64,000 nucleotides of DNA from NCBI RefSeq assembly GCF_024758005.1, contig NZ_CP103288.1, forward strand, positions 1,922,001 to 1,986,000. Reading direction: 5' to 3'. This document shows positions 3,630 to 63,839 of the stretch, in pieces. Both the position numbers and the translations under genes were made by a program. A model generated the notes under the pieces. The model was not told where the DNA came from and searched no databases. It saw nothing but the letters and a program-made list of their open reading frames with translations. Source of the DNA: Pseudarthrobacter sp. NS4 (GTDB taxonomy: Bacteria > Actinomycetota > Actinomycetes > Actinomycetales > Micrococcaceae). How positions within the stretch are numbered: the first letter of the stretch is position 1; each line of letters opens with the position of its first letter.

Positions 3630-3924
3630 CGTGCTGCCTCCTATTTGCTGCCCAGCCCCCGCAACCGACACGGCCGGGGCCGGGATCGGATTTGAACAGC
3701 ATTAAAATACGCCTGCATGGCCCTGTTGTTAAGCCCGAAGAAATGCCCACCGACGGGGGACTGGCGGGCTTTCGTAGACGCGCTGCAGGCAGCAGGTTTT
3801 GACCATCAGCTGAATGATCCCGGAGACGAAAAGCTCGAAACTGATCTTCTCTTGGCGTGCGATGTACCCTTAGCGGGATCCTCAGACCCTGGTTTTGGGA
3901 AACTGGAAAGGTGGAACAAAAGAG

Positions 3925-4194
3925 ATGACACTCCAAAACGAGTGGGACCGACTTGACTCAGAGACGCGCCAGTGGCTCTTGGATAATCCAGGATGCGTAA
4001 TGGTGCCGCACACCGTCAGTGCCAGGATCAAGGAAATTGCTGCAGGGCACATCGAAGTTGATGAACACGGCCAAATGCTGCTTTCCCGAGAGGACCTCGA
4101 TTTCATCCGCGAGAAGGGCACGGGTGTCGGAACACGCGAAATCAGCGAGGAATTGCAGTTCTTTGATGCAACGCAGCCCCGAAAGCGCGAATAA
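3925..4194 (+). CDS. Hypothetical small protein
   Basis: 89 residues, hydrophilic, no signal peptide or membrane segment. Contains a helical N-terminus (NEWDRLDSETRQWLLDNPG) and a charged C-terminal half. The ATG at 3925 follows AAAGGTGG and AAGAG stretches; a TTG at 3895 could add ten residues. Codon use is typical of the surrounding genes. The family is not recognised. The 250 bases between this gene and hsp20 contain short open frames without support. Confidence 0.6.
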   Translation: MTLQNEWDRLDSETRQWLLDNPGCVMVPHTVSARIKEIAAGHIEVDEHGQMLLSREDLDFIREKGTGVGTREISEELQFFDATQPRKRE

Positions 4195-4287
4195 GCCGCA
4201 GCCGCGCAGGACAGTGCAGTCTGCTGTGTCGTTCCTGCTCAATATGTGGGGCATCGCCTTTTTTCGGCCAGGCGCGGAGTTAGGGGC

Positions 4288-4891
4288 CTAGCGACCGCTC
4301 AAGAAACTGTTTGTGAGCAGTCTCAGGCTTGCGGGAGTAGCTGCCAACTCTATGGTCCCTTTATCGGTACTGACCGTTAGGACTTCATTCCGCGGAAAGG
4401 TTGACCACTTGGGCCTTGCCGGCTGGCCAACCAGGCGCAGCTCTGGAGCTTGCGATGAGTCCGCTGCCAGTCGCGGGGATCGTTGTCTGAAACAGGAACC
4501 GGCCCGGTTCAATTTTCGCGTATCCTGCTGCCCACTTCCCCTTGAGTGTTGATCCACTTTTCCGAAGGGCGCATTGGAAAAGACCTTGTTCGGCGTCCCG
4601 TGCAACACGTCGTCTTTGCATGGAAATGATCGGCGACGAGACCAGCGCAGTTAGGGCAATGGTGGCCGGAATGAGAATGGCCAGCGCCGGCCAGTGTCCC
4701 ACGATGGCGCTTAAGGGAGGGAACGCGAACAGCAGGATTACCGCCGCCGGAAGGACATGCAGGCTACCCAAGTCGTAGACCTTTTCCACCCAGCTTCGGG
4801 GCGCCGGCTCCAGGTTCACTTCCCTCATCGGCAGTCTTTGACCTTCCTGCACACATGCGTACGCTACGCCCTTACCCTCGGGTTGGCTCAT
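4288..4891 (-). pseudogene. Frameshifted conserved membrane protein, possibly DUF2550-like
   Basis: From an ATG at 4891 (AGGA eight bases upstream) one frame encodes a polar N-terminus, a membrane hairpin at about residues 45-85 and a soluble part beginning near FQCALRKSG, then runs to an odd end at 4385. A second frame continues from about 4480 to 4288 with sensible protein (LRLVGQPARPKWSTFPRN and VLTVSTDKGTIELAATP). Joining the two gives a coherent protein of about 200 residues with an N-terminal anchor and a C-terminal beta-rich domain. The shift lies at about 4440-4490. The DUF2550 comparison rests on a CALR-like motif and is tentative. Confidence 0.55.
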
Positions 4892-4929
4892 AGAGAGGTT
4901 CCTGTGCCGAGACGGTTGAATTTGGACTT

Positions 4930-5181
4930 TTAGGGCGGGCCATGTTTGGGGAGGCGGCTGCGCCGGCGGTTGGCTGCGAAGTAGGTCAGAGAGGCCATGG
5001 CGGCGAAGAAGAACACGATGGCGAGAAAGTAGTTGGAAATCAGCAGCATCCAGATGCAGCACAGCAGCAGTGCCGGCGGGAGGAGGATGGCCGTTGCCCA
5101 GAATGTCTTGCCTTGGTGCCGGCTGGTTCCGTCCTTGTTTCCTTGGGCCGGATTTTCCTGGTTGTTGGGTTCAGAGTTCAT
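4930..5181 (-). CDS. Small membrane protein
   Basis: 83 residues. Polar Asn/Gln-rich N-terminus, then two adjoining hydrophobic helices at about 28-48 and 49-68, and a basic Arg-rich tail that probably stays in the cytoplasm. It lies 38 bases upstream of the frameshifted membrane gene on the same strand, so the two may form an operon. GGAAA precedes the ATG. Family not recognised. Confidence 0.6.
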   Translation of the reverse strand: MNSEPNNQENPAQGNKDGTSRHQGKTFWATAILLPPALLLCCIWMLLISNYFLAIVFFFAAMASLTYFAANRRRSRLPKHGPP

Positions 5182-5294
5182 GCCGTTTCCATGCCGATGG
5201 GGTAGCGCTCGGGAGTCCGGTGCGGTGCCGGTTCGGAATCGTCGGGCGGATCCGTAACGATGATCGTGGGTGGACGTGATGCTGGTGTTCTGAT

Positions 5295-45441: not shown

Positions 45442-45876
45442 ATCGCACTCCCGGTGGGGTTGTAGCTTGAATGGGGGGATTGAAGCGGGTCGGCGCGGGG
45501 ATGTGGTGGCAGGGCCTGGGCAATCAATGAAGTTTCAGCCGCCGCCCGGCGCCGAGTTGGGGGCTAACGTGGGGGAGTCTGCGTCCAGATCTTCCATTCG
45601 GCACTCCCGCCATTTCCCAGTACCTCAACCAAAGGCCTTCAATGCTGGTGATGTTGAGTTCTATCAAGCCCGATGCGGTCTGCCGTGCACTCACACTGCT
45701 ACCTGATCATCCTGGCGGGCAGCGCCTGCCTATTGATCAGTATACTTACTAATTAGAGGGTACGGGTTTGCGGTGCGTCAGCCAACAGGGAGTGCAGAAT
45801 TTTTGGCCGGGGAGCGCCTCTGCCCTGTTTGCCGACAAGTTCGGTTAGGGGGTGCGGGGAGATGACGTGAAGTGCT
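45442..45876. other. Intergenic region
   Basis: About 435 bases without a supported gene. The stretch near 45735-45760 is unusually AT-rich (contains TATACTTACTAATTAG) and could be a promoter. Confidence 0.4.
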
Positions 45877-46068
45877 TCACTCAAGCTTGGCGTGGCGCAG
45901 GTACTGATAGACGGTCTCCCTGCTGATGCCGTAGTCACGGGCAAGGGCGGCTTTCGGCACACCGTTGCCGGCGCGCTGAACCAGCTCGGCCGCCGGTTCC
46001 GGTGTGAGGGTCTTTTTCCGCCCTTGGTAGGCGCCGCGCTGCTTGGCCAAGGCGATGCCCTCTGGGCG
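45877..46068 (-). pseudogene. C-terminal fragment of a serine resolvase/recombinase
   Basis: About 63 residues: EGIALAKQRGAYQGRKKTL and a C-terminal HTH (KAALARDYGISRETVYQYL). This is the end of the catalytic domain plus the HTH_7 DNA-binding domain of Tn3-type resolvases. The N-terminal catalytic serine region is absent; upstream codons to 46188 are unrelated. A relic of a transposon or plasmid. Confidence 0.75.
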
Positions 46069-46394
46069 ACAACGCCAAGCGAGTCGGATCTCTGGAATCG
46101 GCACCGCTAGTGATCGATCTGTCCGGCGCCGGCGGGCCCAGTGCATCCAGCCACTAATCCCCACGGGGAAGTTTGGGTCACCGAACACGAGGTATCGCGC
46201 CCATAGCAGAAATGACGCCTCTGAAGCTGCTCAATCTTGCAGACAGCAGTGTTTCCCGGGCGCCGATGCGCACTGGAGCCAATCTCATAAAGGGGACGGG
46301 ATGGCCCGCCGGCCGGCCGAATAGGACTGTCCCAATTCTGAATCTACCTGAGTTGTAAAAAGAAGGTTGTTCCCAGGGCTGGCCCGTGCCGTTA

Positions 46395-46442
46395 GGGTGA
46401 TCACGGGCGGTGTCGATGAAGAATCGCCCGGTTGGGTGATCA
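46395..46442 (+). promoter_or_regulatory. Direct repeat upstream of the repeat-peptide operon
   Basis: GGGTGATCA occurs at 46395-46403 and again at 46434-46442, 39 bases apart start to start, with GGGCG and CGCCC between them able to form a small hairpin. It ends 49 bases before the peptide ATG, a suitable place for an operator or activator site. Confidence 0.45.
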
Positions 46443-46491
46443 GGTGCCGGTAACGGAGCTGATCCTAGCGATTCGATTCTCGGGAGGAAGC

Positions 46492-46767
46492 ATGACCAGT
46501 CCAGAGCAGGATCCAAGCCAGCAGGAAGGCCCCGCGGACGGCGGCGCGGACGGCGTCCCCGGCATGCATGATGGAGGTGCCGACGGTGGGGCTGACAGCG
46601 GTGCCGACGGAGGAGCTGACAGCGGTGCCGACGGAGGAGCTGACAGCGGTGCCGACGGAGGAGCTGACAGCGGTGCCGACGGAGGAGCTGACAGCGGTGC
46701 CGACGGAGGAGCTGACAGCGGTGCCGACGGCGGAGCCGATGGGGGAGCCGCAGAACGGGGCATCTAA
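46492..46767 (+). CDS. Repeat peptide, candidate precursor of a modified ribosomal peptide
   Basis: 91 residues. A polar leader of about 14 residues (MTSPEQDPSQQEGP) precedes a region made almost only of Gly, Ala, Asp and Ser: six copies of ADSGADGG after an irregular stretch, then AERGI at the end. There is no signal peptide, Cys, aromatic or Lys residue. GGGAGG lies about six bases before the ATG, so translation is well supported. The JmjC/cupin gene starts three bases after the stop. A short leader, repeated core and adjacent oxygenase resemble multi-core RiPP precursors; that reading is inference. Confidence 0.7.
   Translation: MTSPEQDPSQQEGPADGGADGVPGMHDGGADGGADSGADGGADSGADGGADSGADGGADSGADGGADSGADGGADSGADGGADGGAAERGI
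46591..46734 (+). repeat. Six 24-bp tandem repeats inside the peptide gene
   Basis: The unit starting GCTGACAGCGGTGCCGACGG is present five times without change and a sixth time with one base difference (46711-46734). Each unit encodes ADSGADGG in frame. Identity at third codon positions shows recent duplication by slippage or recombination. Confidence 0.95.
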
Positions 46768-46770
46768 ATT

Positions 46771-47976
46771 TTGAGCACCACCCGCACGGACTTTCAGGAC
46801 CCCGGCGCACTGGAAAGCGGCGGGGTCCTGGAGACACGCCTGATTAACATTGGCCGTGAGAGGTTCGCCGGCGACGTCTGGGGGCGCACGGCGCTGCTCA
46901 CGCGTGGCGCCGGTGACTTCTCCGATCTGTTCTCTGCCGAGGCTGTCGACGAACTGATCTCGCGCCGTGGACTGCGCACACCTTTTCTCCGCGTTGCCAA
47001 GGGCGGTTCTACATTTCCCGACTCGTCATTCACCTCTCCCGCCGGCGTCGGCGCCACCATCTCTGACCAGCTCGACGACACAGCGCTTTGGCGCAAATTC
47101 GCGGACGGTGCCACGCTGGTGCTGCAGGCTCTGCACCGCACATGGGAGCCGGTCTCGGACTTCAGCAGCAGGCTGAGCACAGAGCTGGGACATCCGGTGC
47201 AGGCCAATGCCTACATCACGCCGCCTCAGAACCGTGGATTCGACGATCACTATGACGTGCACGACGTCTTCGTCCTGCAGATCGAAGGGACCAAGCGCTG
47301 GATCATCCACGAGCCGGTTCACCGCGACCCCTTGCGTAATCAGCCCTGGACTGACCGCCGCTCCGCCGTGGCCGAGGCCGCGAAAGGCGATGCCCATATT
47401 GACACCGTGCTTGAGCCAGGGGATGTCCTCTACCTGCCGCGTGGCTGGTTGCACGCCGCCCAGGCGCAGGGCGAGGTCTCCATCCACCTCACGCTCGGAA
47501 TCCACAGTTGGACCCGCTACGCGTTGGCCGAACAGCTCGCGCAGGCCGCGCTTGCAGCGCTGTGCGATGATCCCGAGATGCGCCGTACGTTGCCGTTGGG
47601 TGTCGACGGGCCGGGTGCGGAGCTCGACGTCGTCCGTGAGCGCCTCGCCGCTGCTGTCGGTGAGGCTGAAACCAGTTCTTTGTTCCACTGCATCCGGCGA
47701 GGTCAGGGCCGGCCGGCACCGCTGGGACCGTTGGCCCAGCTCGCGGCTGTCGACGGCCTGGGCCCCGAGTCCGTGGTCCGGCTTCGCGATGCACTGGAAG
47801 CACGGCTGGAGGGATTGCGCCTGACCACGCGCGTGGGTTGGCACGACTTCCCAGCGACCGATCTGCCGTCTGTAACGCGCCTGCTCGACGGGGAGCTTCA
47901 CATCGCGGGTGATCTCGGCGTCGAACTCGTTGAAAGACTGCTGCGCGCGGGGGTCCTCGTTCCCGTTGAACAGTAA
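46771..47976 (+). CDS. JmjC/cupin-4 oxygenase (RoxA/NO66-like)
   Basis: 401 residues, the size of bacterial ribosomal oxygenases. Fe(II) and 2-oxoglutarate-dependent hydroxylases of this group act on protein side chains. The iron site can be placed at His160 and Asp162 (DDHYDVHD) and His228 (YLPRGWLHAA); Lys175 in GTKRW may bind 2-oxoglutarate. A helical, winged-helix-like C-terminal third follows, as in RoxA. The start is TTG at 46771; no in-frame ATG exists near. It follows the repeat-peptide stop by three bases and overlaps the next gene by eleven. Known relatives modify ribosomal proteins; here the encoded repeat peptide is the natural candidate substrate. Confidence 0.85.
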   Translation: MSTTRTDFQDPGALESGGVLETRLINIGRERFAGDVWGRTALLTRGAGDFSDLFSAEAVDELISRRGLRTPFLRVAKGGSTFPDSSFTSPAGVGATISDQLDDTALWRKFADGATLVLQALHRTWEPVSDFSSRLSTELGHPVQANAYITPPQNRGFDDHYDVHDVFVLQIEGTKRWIIHEPVHRDPLRNQPWTDRRSAVAEAAKGDAHIDTVLEPGDVLYLPRGWLHAAQAQGEVSIHLTLGIHSWTRYALAEQLAQAALAALCDDPEMRRTLPLGVDGPGAELDVVRERLAAAVGEAETSSLFHCIRRGQGRPAPLGPLAQLAAVDGLGPESVVRLRDALEARLEGLRLTTRVGWHDFPATDLPSVTRLLDGELHIAGDLGVELVERLLRAGVLVPVEQ

Positions 47977-48892
47977 TCTAGACAGTGACGCCACAGTGGC
48001 GGCCACGGAGCGCTTCTTCTGCTCTGAAGGCGCCCGGTTGCGCGGAGACCCGATTGCAGGCACAGCGTCGCACGGCGTCGTCTGGGTCCTCATCGAGTAC
48101 CGGGGCGGCTGGCCTCTAAATGGCTTCGAAGGGCTTGATCTCGAGCCTGAGACCAAAGCACTCGTGCTCTCCGCCGCGAAGGCGGCGCGGGCGCGGGTGC
48201 TGCTGGTGAGACGGCCCGGCCCCCGCCGCCGTGAGGGTCAGAGCCATTGGGCAGTACTGCACCATGAGGATTCGGGCGAATATCGTCAACAATGGGGAAC
48301 GTGGGGCAAGGATGAGGATCTGGCGGAGATTGCCAGAGCCCTCAGCCTCCCCGGAACGCCCGGCTATCCGCCCGTCATCCTGGTCTGCACTCACAGTCAA
48401 CATGACCAATGCTGTGCAGTGTGGGGACGGCCGGTGGGACGTGCGCTGAGTGAGCGGTGGCCGGAGCTTGTGTGGGAATGTTCGCATGTAGGAGGTGACA
48501 GGTTCGCAGCCAACGTCGTGGTTGCACCCGACGGTGTCTACTACGGAAATCTGGACGTGGAGTCGTCCGTAGCCACGATCGAAGAACACCTCGCGGGCCG
48601 TATCCACGCAAAGCATTTGCGCGGATACACGGATCTCTTCCCAGCACAGCAGACCGCTATCGGGGCCACGATCAGGCGTTTCGGCCCGGCCGGCCGGAAT
48701 GACTACAGGGTTGTCGAGACCTCCCGCGACGGTGATCATTGGCGGATCCACATCACCGGCTGCCCGCCTCACCCGGCGCGTATCGACGTCGAACTGCATG
48801 CTCACCGCGGCCCGCCGTGCCGGTTGACCTGCCGCGGACCGGCAATGAGTTCGGCCATGGTCTACGAGCTCATTTCGATCCGCGCAGTCTAA
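47966..48892 (+). CDS. Sucrase/ferredoxin-like [2Fe-2S] protein
   Basis: 308 residues from a TTG at 47966 that overlaps the oxygenase stop. The family has a thioredoxin-like ferredoxin fold. Matching motifs are the N-terminal Cys in FFCSEGARLRGDPIAGTA, CTHSQHDQCCAVWGRP with clustered Cys, and WECSHVGGDRFAANVV. These Cys and His residues are expected to hold an Fe-S cluster. The overlap with the oxygenase gene implies joint function, perhaps electron supply or iron reactivation. Confidence 0.85.
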   Translation: MNSNLDSDATVAATERFFCSEGARLRGDPIAGTASHGVVWVLIEYRGGWPLNGFEGLDLEPETKALVLSAAKAARARVLLVRRPGPRRREGQSHWAVLHHEDSGEYRQQWGTWGKDEDLAEIARALSLPGTPGYPPVILVCTHSQHDQCCAVWGRPVGRALSERWPELVWECSHVGGDRFAANVVVAPDGVYYGNLDVESSVATIEEHLAGRIHAKHLRGYTDLFPAQQTAIGATIRRFGPAGRNDYRVVETSRDGDHWRIHITGCPPHPARIDVELHAHRGPPCRLTCRGPAMSSAMVYELISIRAV

Positions 48893-49023
48893 AGGACGGG
48901 TTTACCGAAGGCAGTTCGTTTGTCGGTGAGTCGACGAAGGTTCCAATCGACCCGGCGACCCAGGCCTCGAGCACCGCAGCGGCTGGCAGCGCTGACCGAA
49001 AAGCGCGTTCGGCACAACTGAGA

Positions 49024-49057
49024 ACTGCCGCGCCCCCTGAAGTGAGGGCACGGCAGT
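49024..49057 (+). terminator. Hairpin downstream of the oxygenase operon
   Basis: ACTGCCG at 49024-49030 pairs with CGGCAGT at 49051-49057, with a further GCCC/GGGC pairing inside. It lies 132 bases after the sucrase/ferredoxin stop. There is no clear U tract. Confidence 0.6.
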
Positions 49058-49080
49058 CGCTTGGAGTCGCTTAGAATCTG

Positions 49081-49223
49081 CAAAAAGGCGGCGTGTGCAA
49101 TGCGCACACGTTGGTCGTTGAACTCGGTCGTACATTGGCCGAACGGGCTCGGATTCCGCGTGTTTCCACGGGTGCCCGGTGTTAGCCAGGGCTGGAATGC
49201 AGTTCGAGTCCCACCTCGAACAC
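49081..49223. repeat. Dispersed repeat 2, copy B: hairpin plus tRNA-like 3' segment
   Basis: Matches 21896-22037 with the same opening CAAAAAG, the same total length and the same end. The hairpin here has a different sequence (CGTGTGC at 49092-49098 with GCACACG at 49104-49110) but the same position, so base pairing is kept while bases change. The GCAGTTCGAGTCCCACCTCG end is identical between copies. Confidence 0.75.
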
Positions 49224-49258
49224 GGATGCCTGTTGGGGACCCCCTCCTTTACCTCGGA

Positions 49259-50473
49259 CTAGTTGCTGAGGTAGCCGTTCGGGTCCAGGACATACTTCGT
49301 GGCGGCTCCGGCATCGAATTCCGCGTAGCCCCGCGGGGCATCCTGGAGCGAAATGGCCGTGGCGTTGACCGCCTTGGCGATCTGGATCCTGTCATGCAGG
49401 ATCGCCATCATCAGCTGCCGGTTGTACTTCATCACCGGGCACTGGCCGGTCGCGAAGGAGAGGGACTTCGCCCAGCCCGTGCCCAGGGACAGGGACAGGC
49501 TGCCCTTCTGGGCCGCCTCGTCCGCGGCACCCGGATCCCCGGTGACATAAAGGCCAGGAATGCCCAGGGACCCGCCGGCGGCGGTGAGGTCCATCAGCGA
49601 GTTGAGTACGGTGGCCGGTGCCTCCTGGGCCCCGGCGCCGTGTCCGCGTGCCTCGAAACCTACCGCGTCGATACCGGCATCGACCTCCCGGACGCCGAGA
49701 AGCTGCTCGATCTGGTCAGCAGGGTCGCCGTTAGCGACATTGACGGTTCCGCAGCCAAAGGACCGGGCCTGGGCCAAGCGATCCTCATTGAGATCCCCAA
49801 CGATGACGACCGCGGCCCCGAGCAGTTGGGCGCTGGCCGCTGCGGCAAGCCCCACCGGACCGGCCCCTGCGACATAGACGGTGGACCCAACACCGACGCC
49901 TGCCGTGACAGCCCCGTGGAAACCGGTCGGGAGGATGTCCGAGAGCATGGTCAGGTCCATGATCTTCTCCAGAGCCTGGTCCCGATCGGGGAAGCGCAAC
50001 AGGTTCCAGTCCGCGTAGGGGACCAGGACGAACTCCGCCTGCCCGCCGACCCATCCGCCCATGTCGACATAGCCGTAGGCGGACCCGGGACGGTCCGGGT
50101 TCACGTTCAGGCAGATCCCGGTCTTGCGCTCCTTGCAGTTCCGGCAGCGCCCGCAGGAGATGTTGAAGGGGACCGAGACGATGTCCCCGACCTTGATGAA
50201 CTCAACGTCGGGCCCGGTCTCGATGACTTCCCCGGTGATCTCGTGCCCCAGGACGAGACCGGCCGGGGCGGTCGTGCGACCACGAACCATGTGCTGGTCC
50301 GAGCCGCAGATGTTGGTGCTCACCGTGCGCAGGATGACCCCGTGCGGGACCTTCCGGCCGACATTGATGGGATTGACGCCGGGGCCGGCCTGCAGTTCAA
50401 AGCTGGGATACGGGGTATCGATGATTTCCACGATCCCCGGCGCCTTGTATGCAACGGCTTTGTTACCTGACAT
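49259..50473 (-). CDS. fdhA: Glutathione-independent formaldehyde dehydrogenase
   Basis: 404 residues, zinc-dependent medium-chain dehydrogenase of the FdhA type. Catalytic zinc Cys in STNICGSDQHMVRGR and HEITGE; structural zinc site CGRCRNCKERKTGIC; Rossmann motif VAGAGPVGLAAAAS; and the family-typical GSLSLSLGTGWAKSLSFATGQ insertion. It oxidises formaldehyde to formate with tightly bound NAD. It lies on the same strand downstream of the Rieske oxygenase and reductase genes, so it probably removes formaldehyde released by demethylation. Confidence 0.92.
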   Translation of the reverse strand: MSGNKAVAYKAPGIVEIIDTPYPSFELQAGPGVNPINVGRKVPHGVILRTVSTNICGSDQHMVRGRTTAPAGLVLGHEITGEVIETGPDVEFIKVGDIVSVPFNISCGRCRNCKERKTGICLNVNPDRPGSAYGYVDMGGWVGGQAEFVLVPYADWNLLRFPDRDQALEKIMDLTMLSDILPTGFHGAVTAGVGVGSTVYVAGAGPVGLAAAASAQLLGAAVVIVGDLNEDRLAQARSFGCGTVNVANGDPADQIEQLLGVREVDAGIDAVGFEARGHGAGAQEAPATVLNSLMDLTAAGGSLGIPGLYVTGDPGAADEAAQKGSLSLSLGTGWAKSLSFATGQCPVMKYNRQLMMAILHDRIQIAKAVNATAISLQDAPRGYAEFDAGAATKYVLDPNGYLSN

Positions 50474-50714
50474 TGAATGGCTCCTGTGGGTTGTCGGTCG
50501 GACCCTCACGGTGATTTTGGCCGCATCAGACTGTCGGAGGCAGTCGTTGTCAGCTTTCGTGAAGGAAGTTGGGTCGGTTGATACGTGCAGCGCGTACCGT
50601 TTTGGGCAAGGAAGCGTTCAGGCGGACCGTCACAATGGATGGGGGTTTGTGGCCGGCATCTTCTGCCGTGAAAACAATCCCTAATGCTGTCCGGCCTGGA
50701 GCAGCTGGAAGCCG

Positions 50715-52130
50715 CTAGGCATCAATCACCAAATCGGTCCGCGCGGTGGAGCAGCAGGGCAGGAACTTGCCTGCATCGATTTCCCGTGCCCGGATCCCGC
50801 CCTGGTGGTTCATCTCCACCTCTCCGGAAAGCTTGACTACCTTGCAGGAGCCGCACATGCCTTCCTTGCAGTTCGCGCCGATCCTGACGCCCGCACGCTG
50901 GGCCGCCTCGAGGATGTGTTCGGCGGGGTCGACGCGCACATTGATGCCGGTGCGCATGAAGGACATGGTGAGGCTTCCCGTTCCGACCGTGTCGAAGCTC
51001 GAGGCATCAGGGGACACGGCCTCCGGCCCCACGTCCCGACTGCCGCCGGAGGCTTCGGAATAGGACGCGTCCGAGTCGACGGTTTCCAGCGGCAGCCCCG
51101 TGGCCTTCAGGGTTCCCTCGGTGTCGTAGCCGGGTTCGTAGAGCCCGAACGCGGTGGGCTGGCTTTCATAGTAGTCCTCGGCGGACTCGGCGATTTCCTC
51201 GGCGATTTCCTCCGCGATGTCCGCTGCAAGGGCAACTTCAGCCTGGTATTCAAGGAGCGTCTGGCGGTCGCCAGAGAAGAATTCCATGTAGATGGAGGTG
51301 TCATCGACGCCGACCTTCTTGAGGAGCTCGGTGGCGGTGTTCAGGTAACCCTCGGGGCCGCAGGCATAGACCTGGCGGCCGTTGGCATCCGGGGCAACCT
51401 CGTCGAGCATGGCCGCCGTCAGCCTTCCGCTGAGCCATTCCCACCCCTCGGGTTTGTTGCGGTCGCCCAGGGAGTAGAAGACCTTGACTCGCGAGTCCAC
51501 GGAGGCGATGTAGGCCAGCTCCTCGTGGAAGGCATAGCCTCCGGCCTCCGCTCCGTGGTAAAGCACCACAACATCGGCCTGTCCGGGCAGGGAGTGGATG
51601 GTCCGCACCATCGACATGATGGGGGTGATGCCTGCACCGGCGGCCAGCAATAGGTACCGTGCCCGGCGGTCGGCATCGGGCAGGTGGAATGCCCCGACCG
51701 GTCCGAGCATCTCGAGGACGGTGCCAGGTTTGACGTTCTCGTGCACCCACGGTGAGACCAGTCCCGTGGCGTCGCGTTTGACTGTGATGTTGAAGGTCCA
51801 CGGCTGGGTGGGTGAACTGGACAGCGAGTAGCTGCGGTCCACCGGATCCTGGTCCTCGCCGTTCACGGGAAAGGCGACGTTCACGTACTGGCCCGCACGG
51901 AACGCCAGGGGTGCACCGTCGCAGCGGCGGAACACGAAGGTCATCATGCCGCCCACCTCGGGAATGGTCTCGACACATTCCGCCATGAACTCCTGCGGGT
52001 GCCACGGGCCCAATGCGTGGGCGGCCCGGGCGGGTGCCTCGTTGCTGCCCATCACCCTGTTCCACGGCATCTCAAGACCGCGAATGCGCTGCGGCTCCTG
52101 GATTGCCGTCTCAGTGCGGAGTTCAATCAT
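50715..52130 (-). CDS. Rieske oxygenase reductase component, GbcB-like
   Basis: 471 residues. Order: FAD domain (RSYSLSSSPTQ), NAD domain (LLLAAGAGITPIMSM, CGPEGYL), then a long acidic low-complexity linker at about 285-380 (AEEIAEEIAESAEDYYES and Ser/Asp-rich stretches), and a C-terminal plant-type [2Fe-2S] ferredoxin (CKEGMCGSC plus CC near the end). Domain order matches GbcB-type reductases; the linker is longer than I would expect. The ATG at 52130 overlaps the oxygenase stop by four bases. It passes electrons from NAD(P)H to the oxygenase upstream. Confidence 0.88.
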   Translation of the reverse strand: MIELRTETAIQEPQRIRGLEMPWNRVMGSNEAPARAAHALGPWHPQEFMAECVETIPEVGGMMTFVFRRCDGAPLAFRAGQYVNVAFPVNGEDQDPVDRSYSLSSSPTQPWTFNITVKRDATGLVSPWVHENVKPGTVLEMLGPVGAFHLPDADRRARYLLLAAGAGITPIMSMVRTIHSLPGQADVVVLYHGAEAGGYAFHEELAYIASVDSRVKVFYSLGDRNKPEGWEWLSGRLTAAMLDEVAPDANGRQVYACGPEGYLNTATELLKKVGVDDTSIYMEFFSGDRQTLLEYQAEVALAADIAEEIAEEIAESAEDYYESQPTAFGLYEPGYDTEGTLKATGLPLETVDSDASYSEASGGSRDVGPEAVSPDASSFDTVGTGSLTMSFMRTGINVRVDPAEHILEAAQRAGVRIGANCKEGMCGSCKVVKLSGEVEMNHQGGIRAREIDAGKFLPCCSTARTDLVIDA

Positions 52131-53431
52131 GCCAAGTGCTCCTGCACGCGCTGAACGTACCAGTTGATGAACGCCTCGACCTGGTATTCGCTCTTCATGT
52201 AAGGGCCGGGCTCGTAGGCGGGGCTGCTGGCGCCCTTCTGGCACAGCTCCACGAACGCCTTGTCCTGCAGATTTGTCTGCTTCCAGGTGTAGGTGAGTTT
52301 CTCAAGATCGTAATCGACGCCTTCCTCGGCGTCGTCAGCCACCAGCCACGTGGTGCGTACCAGGGTTTGGTGTTCGTTGACGGGGAAGACGGCGAACGTG
52401 ATGACGTGGTCCCCCTGGAAATGGAACCAGCTGTTGGGCTGCAGGTGCATCGAGCAGCGGCCAAGGCGGAAGTCCCGCAAGTCACCGAGCAGCTTCTTGG
52501 AGAGCCTGCGCCCATCGGGGGAGAACGATTCGCCTTCACCGTCGAGCGATTCCCGTGAGATGCGGATTCCCGCTACGCGCGTGTCAAGCTCCTCGACGAC
52601 CTCGTAGGGAAGGCCATAGCGGCGGCAACGCTCCTCGAGCGAGGCCTGCGCTTCCTTGTTGCGGTCCCACACTTCCTCGAGGTGGGCCGGGATCAGCCCC
52701 TCCGTCAGGCCCCAGGTGGGAAAGAGGGAACAGGCGAGCTCCGGGTGGCCGTCGCAGTGGTAGCACTCACGGTTGTTCTCCATGACGAGCTTCCAGTTGC
52801 CCTCTTCGATGATGTTCTGCTGGTAGGCGATTTTCGTCTTCGACAGATCGTGGGGTGCGAGGTAAGGCTCAAAGATCTTAGAGGTTTCGTCGAAATCCGC
52901 CGGCGGTTCATCCGCAATGCAGACGAAGATGAGTCCGGCGACCATGCGGCTGTGGGCCCGCTTGAGGCCGAAGCAGCCCTTGTCGAACTTCGTTTCCCCA
53001 GGTGCCGAGGCGTGGATCAGATTGCCGTCGGGCGAGTAGGTCCAGGAGTGGTAGCCGCAGACCAGGTTGCCTGTTGACCCCGAGGGTTCGGTCAGGACGC
53101 GGGCGCCGCGGTGGCGGCACACGTTGTGCAGGACGTTCACGCCGCCGTCGTCGTTATGCAGCACGATCAGGGAGTAGGGCCCGTAGTCGACGGTGACGTA
53201 GTCGCCCGGCTCCGGGAGCTCGGCGATGCTGGCGGCAAAGATCCAGTGCTGGCCAAAAATGGCCTGCATGTCGACGTTGAAAATCGTCGGATCAGTGTAA
53301 AAGGGTGCATCGAGGGAATATCCCGCACGCCGGAGATGGAACAACTCGGAGATCTCCGCCAGCTGCTCTGCAGGCAATGATGAAGCGAGTTTTCCGCGGG
53401 CGTTGAGGGACAAGTTCACTGGAACAGACAT
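52127..53431 (-). CDS. Rieske oxygenase alpha subunit, GbcA-like N-demethylase
   Basis: 434 residues. Rieske ligands in NVCRHRGA and CGYHSW; mononuclear iron site in NNRECYHCDGHPEL. The overall pattern (HWIFAASIAELPEPGDYVTV, HNDDGGVNVLHN) resembles GbcA and related oxygenases that demethylate quaternary amines such as glycine betaine or stachydrine. The ATG at 53431 has GGGAGG seven bases upstream. It heads an operon with the reductase and probably fdhA. A divergent LysR gene is 160 bases upstream. The exact substrate is not known. Confidence 0.85.
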   Translation of the reverse strand: MSVPVNLSLNARGKLASSLPAEQLAEISELFHLRRAGYSLDAPFYTDPTIFNVDMQAIFGQHWIFAASIAELPEPGDYVTVDYGPYSLIVLHNDDGGVNVLHNVCRHRGARVLTEPSGSTGNLVCGYHSWTYSPDGNLIHASAPGETKFDKGCFGLKRAHSRMVAGLIFVCIADEPPADFDETSKIFEPYLAPHDLSKTKIAYQQNIIEEGNWKLVMENNRECYHCDGHPELACSLFPTWGLTEGLIPAHLEEVWDRNKEAQASLEERCRRYGLPYEVVEELDTRVAGIRISRESLDGEGESFSPDGRRLSKKLLGDLRDFRLGRCSMHLQPNSWFHFQGDHVITFAVFPVNEHQTLVRTTWLVADDAEEGVDYDLEKLTYTWKQTNLQDKAFVELCQKGASSPAYEPGPYMKSEYQVEAFINWYVQRVQEHLA

Positions 53432-53590
53432 AATTTTCCTCCCGGGGGGCCTGGGTAGTGTGCAATTCGTTGGGACCACGGGTGGTGGGTGCAACTGGAG
53501 TAGCCAAAAAAGTTTGTAGTCATGAGATTAGACACAATTGACCTGCAACAAAAGCGCAAGATTCAGAAGATAACCATGCATAATAGGTGC

Positions 53591-63645: not shown

Positions 63646-63655
63646 CAGGCTAAGC

Positions 63656-63761
63656 GTAGCGGCAGGGGCCCCACCCGAGCTTGCGAGGGAAGGGGGAGCA
63701 GCGGAGCGGTAGCGGCAGGGGCCCCGCCCGAGCTTGCGAGGGAAGGGGGAGCCGCGAAGTG
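63656..63761. repeat. Tandem 53-bp direct repeat
   Basis: Two adjacent copies, 63656-63708 and 63709-63761, each starting GTAGCGGCAGGGGCCCC and sharing CCCGAGCTTGCGAGGGAAGG. They differ at about five positions. Each copy can fold on itself. They lie between the phosphatase start and the divergent gene at 63840. Confidence 0.9.
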
Positions 63762-63839
63762 GTAAGCCGTCCAACGGTGTCCGCGGGATAATCCCGGAAA
63801 TCCTCGATTCCCTGCAGGTGCGGGGATTACGGTATAGGG

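Follow-up and report, generated by a model that had tools for sequence, protein, structure and literature searches.

A candidate ribosomal-peptide system in actinobacteria: an Asp-rich repeat peptide gene recurrently beside a JmjC oxygenase gene

We analysed a stretch of 64,000 nucleotides from Pseudarthrobacter sp. NS4 (contig NZ_CP103288.1, positions 1,922,001 to 1,986,000 of the forward strand), called the window here. Three genes on its + strand, spanning 46492-48892, encode a repeat peptide, a JmjC_2 oxygenase and a Suc_Fer-like protein. We read them, with a probability of about 0.6, as an operon like those of ribosomally synthesized and post-translationally modified peptides (RiPPs), where the JmjC enzyme beta-hydroxylates Asp of the peptide and the Suc_Fer-like protein serves as redox partner.

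Layout and recurrence of the gene set

The features of the locus, all on the + strand, are as follows.

46365..46491, +: 5′ leader conserved among Arthrobacter-group loci (alignment of 19 upstream regions)
46405-46411 / 46423-46429, +: inverted repeat inside the 5′ leader, read from the sequence
5′ of the ATG at 46492, +: ribosome-binding site GGGAGGAAGC, likewise read
46492..46767, +: Asp/Gly/Ala-rich repeat peptide, putative substrate, 91 aa, ATG start, TAA stop
46525..46593, +: unit of the widespread 23-residue type, EGPADGGADGVPGMHDGGADGGA, by comparison with units of other loci
46576..46736, +: 24-bp tandem array encoding the ADSGADGG expansion (Tandem Repeats Finder: 6.7 copies, 97% matches, score 301)
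46771..47976, +: JmjC_2/Cupin_4 oxygenase, predicted ribosomal-oxygenase fold, 401 aa, TTG start
47966..48892, +: Suc_Fer-like protein, 308 aa, with CX8C (C141/C150) and HX3D (H174/D178)

A sequence-only reading of this DNA had described three tightly packed genes and a 91-residue peptide with six ADSGADGG repeats. Both descriptions hold: 3 intergenic bases separate the peptide stop from the oxygenase start, the Suc_Fer-like gene overlaps the oxygenase gene by 11 bases, and the translated open reading frame (ORF) has the same six copies. The Suc_Fer-like start is likely the TTG at 47966, chosen among the candidate starts. The peptide has 18 Asp, 21 acidic residues against 1 basic, one His and no Cys. 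A DNA pattern for GADGGAD has 7 sites in the 4.44 Mb genome, all within the peptide gene.

The oxygenase matches PF08007 JmjC_2 (E=1.3e-28), with the HxD...H iron site inside the domain, and PF13621 Cupin_8 (E=2e-9). H160, D162 and H228 are invariant in alignments of 22 and 25 rows, as the previously proposed complete iron site demands, and so is K175, which we take from NO66 to be the probable 2-oxoglutarate ligand; N146 is invariant too. The predicted structure has a full-length ribosomal-oxygenase fold with the iron site intact, and this model matches NO66, MINA53 and YcfD over its whole length, C-terminal domain included, at 23-27% identity to NO66. The match agrees with the earlier assignment to a group of protein side-chain hydroxylases. 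In the databases, several bacterial JmjC_2 enzymes are labelled lysine demethylase/histidyl hydroxylase NO66, a name copied from entry to entry.

At a cut-off of E <= 1e-10, 52 of 297 genomes of the order and 130 of 394 of the class have the oxygenase, as do two of the eight same-genus genomes listed, the last count including the window's own. At E <= 0.001 the window's genome shows no further copy. Our named loci are the best 80 of 583 relatives, among them Arthrobacter, Pseudarthrobacter, Paenarthrobacter, Streptomyces, Brachybacterium, Brevibacterium, Leucobacter, Flexivirga, Nocardioides, Microlunatus, Terrabacter, Janibacter and Knoellia.

A DGGA-type repeat ORF lies immediately 5′ of the oxygenase gene in 28 of 30 loci examined in the order, the window's own counted, while L017 and L018 have an acidic ORF of another kind there. 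Among the named loci, 75 of 79 evaluable ones are DGGA-positive. An ORF was called Asp-rich at Asp >= 10% and small residues >= 55%, with ATG or GTG and a ribosome-binding site. A first criterion of >=15% Asp proved too stringent for the 23-residue unit and was lowered; 25 of 40 loci with weak oxygenase relatives still pass it.

An Asp-rich ORF stands just 5′ of the oxygenase gene in 193 of 219 evaluable loci (overlapping sets and not independent cases, since the window locus L001 is counted and some named records repeat genomes of the other sets), versus 0/219 on the opposite strand, a control that covers this criterion and not the DGGA repeats. By set, the counts are 29/30, 22/22, 76/78, 9/10, 27/40 (the weak relatives) and 30/39; elsewhere, in 2.7 Mb of strand sequence, the rate is 0.004 per 720-nt window. 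Either criterion, Asp-rich or DGGA repeat, applies in 203 of 219 loci, again with the window's own. L094, L133 and L229 were excluded at contig ends and L140-L149 as repeats of genomes already counted, and removal of identical peptides left 149 distinct DGGA-type and 44 other Asp-rich ones.

The gene set is thus recurrent, and a short putative precursor adjoins the modifying enzyme in 193/219 or 203/219 loci, as in RiPP systems. Homologous pairs consistently lacking the repeat peptide, the finding that would have spoken against the initial proposal, did not occur.

We also clustered neighbouring ORFs of >=100 residues around each of the 80 named loci, as far as 8 kb on either side (less at contig ends), dropping clusters that resemble shadow ORFs and reporting those in five loci or more. 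The oxygenase cluster appears in 79 loci, the Suc_Fer cluster in 68 and the next family past the shadow-ORF filter in 14 of 80. No other conserved tailoring family was found among these ORFs. A profile search finds Suc_Fer in 22/30, 18/22, 69/80, 15/20 (L140-L159), 12/40 and 36/40 loci by set, always downstream of the oxygenase and on the same strand.

Repeat peptides and their divergence

The 8-residue ADSGADGG repeat is a local expansion beside a unit of about 23 residues at the peptide's start, and the latter unit is the one shared with relatives and is probably ancestral. The window's 24-bp array appears young because it is 97% identical. Units of type EGPADGGAAGTPGVHDGGADGGA occur in at least 2 copies in 65 loci, 214 units in total, and the repeat number varies widely between loci. 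Repeat pairs within genes show 84, 83 and 2105 differences at codon positions 1, 2 and 3, of which the high number of silent changes alone counts as independent evidence, since the units were selected by a protein pattern that itself restricts changes at positions 1 and 2. The many silent changes indicate that the protein text was retained while the DNA drifted.

The commonest Asp-Asp spacings are 4 (1320), 11 (262) and 8 (239), with 9 in 166, and Asp is mostly followed by Gly-Gly-Ala. Among the 193 distinct peptides, 41 begin with EQDP/QDP and 54 with D[DE][DE]?[IMV] motifs, recurrent N-termini that may or may not belong to a leader. The window peptide has no Pfam match, and MSCRAMM adhesin models of NCBIfam match it only far below the cut-off. 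Neither database has a fitting model for any of 13 peptides tested (DUF6021 at E=1.4 for one), and 59 listed relatives are named hypothetical protein or, in two cases, BatC protein. The calcium-binding RTX repeat is the nine-residue GGxGxDxUx, and RTX repeats are ruled out here by the dominant spacing of 4 and the lack of a Pfam match for the peptide.

At divergent oxygenase loci, other Asp-rich ORFs take the same position. Peptides of the GDADGTDGDATDTTDGD type and STQVDP-repeat peptides occur with Suc_Fer, and a 35-residue type ending in GGDNDGTDSSSDFI occurs without it. Peptides of 35-38 residues, such as MDPIEVEVEDLAEVTSRD..GGDNDGTDSSSDFI, adjoin a divergent JmjC gene at L171, L179, L180, L184-L188, L190, L191, L193, L196 and L198, and resemble a classic leader-core precursor; that of L171 has no Pfam or NCBIfam match. 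In several cases, inspection by eye suggests an S9-type peptidase in an ORF upstream.

Asp-Gly-Thr-Asp and similar repeat peptides, with up to 33% Asp, stand beside JmjC genes, mostly with Suc_Fer, at L162, L164, L167-L170, L172, L174, L177 and L182 and at L150-L156 and L159. Many of their N-termini are DDD(I/M)xT- or DEDIxT-like, and the L150-L159 set comes from outside the class to which the window belongs. Two more distant genes are on plasmids. L240 of Pseudanabaena galeata (3962-5182) has a JmjC/cupin gene near a LanM lanthipeptide synthetase gene. L241 of Streptomyces albidoflavus (3810-5176) has a cupin gene after a 48-residue hypothetical ORF and before an aldo/keto reductase gene, the set lying between IS112 copies.

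On a FastTree phylogeny of 161 oxygenases, with local supports and flagged long branches, the peptide types need 17 changes as against 60.5 with shuffled labels, a comparison in which near-copies favour the clustering of types. Pairing of peptide and enzyme over such long divergence is the best argument for a tie between the two, in which the peptide would most simply serve as substrate.

A broader and tentative extension is possible. These peptides may form an undescribed superfamily of Actinomycetota, in which JmjC enzymes of the ribosomal-oxygenase type would write dense beta-hydroxy-Asp arrays on genetically encoded Asp repeats of variable length (DGGAD, DGTDGD, STQVDP and the short SSDFI-ended type). 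The products would be tunable polymers that bind metal. As making them would itself require iron, oxygen and 2-oxoglutarate, the system could report on or buffer iron.

Proposed chemistry and its alternatives

In the proposed pathway, the small gene would provide an acidic repeat peptide as the dedicated substrate of the adjoining oxygenase, a 2-oxoglutarate/Fe(II) JmjC enzyme apparently built like the ribosomal oxygenases. Working repeat by repeat, it would hydroxylate the D-G-G-A motifs at the Asp beta-carbon and give a beta-hydroxy-Asp array. The Suc_Fer-like protein, as a [2Fe-2S] redox partner, may keep the oxygenase iron reduced or supply electrons or iron. The product would act as a ligand for iron or another metal, a purpose that its chemistry suggests, and would probably stay inside the cell or close to it.

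The usual targets of JmjC hydroxylases are side-chain carbons. Every peptide examined contains Asp, Gly and Ala (Asp itself being a selection criterion), while the DGGA-type cores have hardly any Tyr, Trp, Phe or Cys. Of 149 distinct DGGA-type peptides, 20 have no His in the core, and 39 of 44 other Asp-rich ones have none from residue 16 on. Taken with the side-chain preference, these counts point to the Asp beta-carbon as the common target. Asp is the most economical choice because His, modified by the nearest solved relatives, is missing from many peptides. Asp beta-hydroxylation in RiPPs is known through other enzymes (PMC13060819; SmaO in PMC13097080).

The Suc_Fer-like protein matches PF06999 (E=2.6e-18) and shares CX8C with Apd1/Aim32; a [2Fe-2S] role is proposed for it. 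C19, C141, H143, C149, C150, H174, G176, G177, D178 and C289 are invariant in 20 rows. The [2Fe-2S] motifs of Aim32 are CX8C and HX3H (PMC8482512), whereas HX3D stands here in 20 of 20 aligned rows, so the CX8C plus HX3H pair is incomplete and cluster ligation may differ from that of Apd1/Aim32. A Foldseek search with the model gave no PDB match at E <= 0.001, so the fold assignment comes from Pfam only. Among 19 relatives, PF06999 occurs in three genomes, each time close downstream of an oxygenase match; in the class it is far more frequent, at 214 of 394 genomes, and therefore has other roles too.

Several points weigh against the proposed pathway. In the nearest solved enzymes, the hydroxylated residue is a His or Arg of a ribosomal protein and not Asp, and the constant presence of Asp is partly circular, Asp content having been a selection criterion. 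No conserved protease or transporter was found within about 8 kb (ORFs of >=100 residues), unlike in most RiPP pathways. Of 80 named loci, 11 lack Suc_Fer next to the oxygenase, and the family is widespread in any case; it is therefore not required at every locus. Both peptide criteria fail in 13 of 40 weak JmjC relatives and in L128, L158 and L239, although an Asp-rich ORF is visible in the last two. In L128, a Streptomyces copy, the frames of oxygenase and peptide look broken.

The sequence-only proposal of a ribosomal-peptide system is supported as a candidate, both in the recurrence of the gene set and in the kind of oxygenase. Ribosomal-peptide natural product stays a working label: no conserved protease, transporter or other tailoring family turned up among the neighbouring ORFs of >=100 residues.

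Instead of being a substrate, the acidic peptide may partner or regulate the oxygenase, as inhibitor, chaperone or scaffold, and the oxygenase would then hydroxylate a ribosomal or other host protein. The ribosomal-oxygenase fold over the whole length, the strong acidity of the peptide and the lack of maturation genes among the neighbouring ORFs fit this role. The patchy presence in the genus is unlike that of a ribosome-maintenance enzyme, and the wide variation in repeat number and the change of peptide type with enzyme clade also disfavour it, making it rather unlikely.

Hydroxylation of His in the HDGGADGG part of the unit, in the manner of NO66 and MINA53, is likewise unlikely. The closest solved relatives are indeed His hydroxylases and HDGGAD occurs in many 23-residue units, but the window peptide has a single His, some units have Gln in its place, and the His-free peptides counted above would offer no target in the part examined.

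Chemistry on Asp might also go beyond beta-hydroxy-Asp to a crosslink, decarboxylation, aminomalonate or a keto acid, a course that SmaX exemplifies by turning SmaO-made beta-hydroxyaspartate into aminomalonic acid (PMC13097080). The full HxD...H site and the ribosomal-oxygenase fold of the model favour plain hydroxylation and leave this quite improbable.

A low-complexity artefact or chance repeat in high-GC DNA could invoke the recent expansion of the 97% identical array and a DNA pattern that is unspecific in large high-GC genomes (present in 175/394, also where the system is lacking), but it is ruled out by recurrence beside the same gene in other genera and by silent-site divergence, with ribosome-binding sites present and none of 219 on the opposite strand. 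In 10 pattern-positive genomes without a strong oxygenase match, the sites are scattered, with close pairs in two only.

Surroundings, known systems and meaning

Rfam over 45800-49300 gives a single match, at 47160-47222 (-) and under its gathering score, and none within the 5′ leader; no sigma-70 promoter was found in 46000-49200. Just 5′ of the trio, a short ORF at 45877-46188 (-) has a resolvase-type HTH_7 domain and is possibly a recombinase remnant. On the other side, the genes at 49259-53494 (-) begin with a glutathione-independent formaldehyde dehydrogenase (TIGR02819), followed by ORFs resembling, by eye, ferredoxin-reductase-type and Rieske-type oxygenase proteins; they probably belong to C1 metabolism unrelated to the trio. 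A 53-bp tandem repeat (2.2 copies, 90% matches) lies at 63652-63764. Anti-phage defence was rejected as PADLOC has no match for the three proteins, a tRNA-linked island as the window has no tRNA, and a plasmid origin of the oxygenase as none of 21 plasmid records covers 80% of the query and all are below 60% identity.

The oxygenase shares its predicted whole-length fold, HxD...H and the aligned N and K with the ribosomal oxygenases (NO66/RIOX1, MINA53/RIOX2 and YcfD; PF08007). Unlike theirs, its gene sits with those of an Asp-rich repeat peptide and Suc_Fer and is patchy within the genus.

Other systems also come near. BipG, the JmjC ornithine hydroxylase of biphenomycin, and PbsQ act on ribosomal precursors (PMC12707348, PMC12257519), but hydroxylate one ornithine in a many-enzyme pathway with transporter and protease, whereas the oxygenase here is the only clear modifying enzyme and its putative substrate an Asp repeat. 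RiPP recognition element-like domains are fused to PF08007 JmjC in eukaryotes, and bacterial JmjC homologues occur in RiPP-like contexts (PMC12710340); the C-terminal domain here has a like order of strands and then three helices, but that description includes neither an Asp-repeat peptide nor Suc_Fer. The corallotide precursor has five motif repeats with Lys hydroxylated by a 2-oxoglutarate-Fe(II) oxygenase (PMC13097080), but requires a graspetide synthetase, is modified on Lys rather than Asp and has another gene set.

Judged from titles and abstract beginnings, the literature holds no description of the trio that we could find. Four repeat strings matched only a paper on pig feed efficiency, a chance hit, and no paper was found with the term BatC protein. 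JmjC tailoring, repeat precursors and Asp hydroxylation are each already known, and it is their set for which we found no description.

If the proposed reading is true, the trio represents a peptide-modification system that is widespread, ranging over Streptomyces, Arthrobacter relatives and many other actinobacteria, and in which a single clear modifying enzyme is encoded next to its substrate. With its small size, the operon could be reconstituted in E. coli. The system would offer a concrete substrate candidate for bacterial JmjC_2 enzymes and would link the ribosomal oxygenases to the RiPP enzymes.

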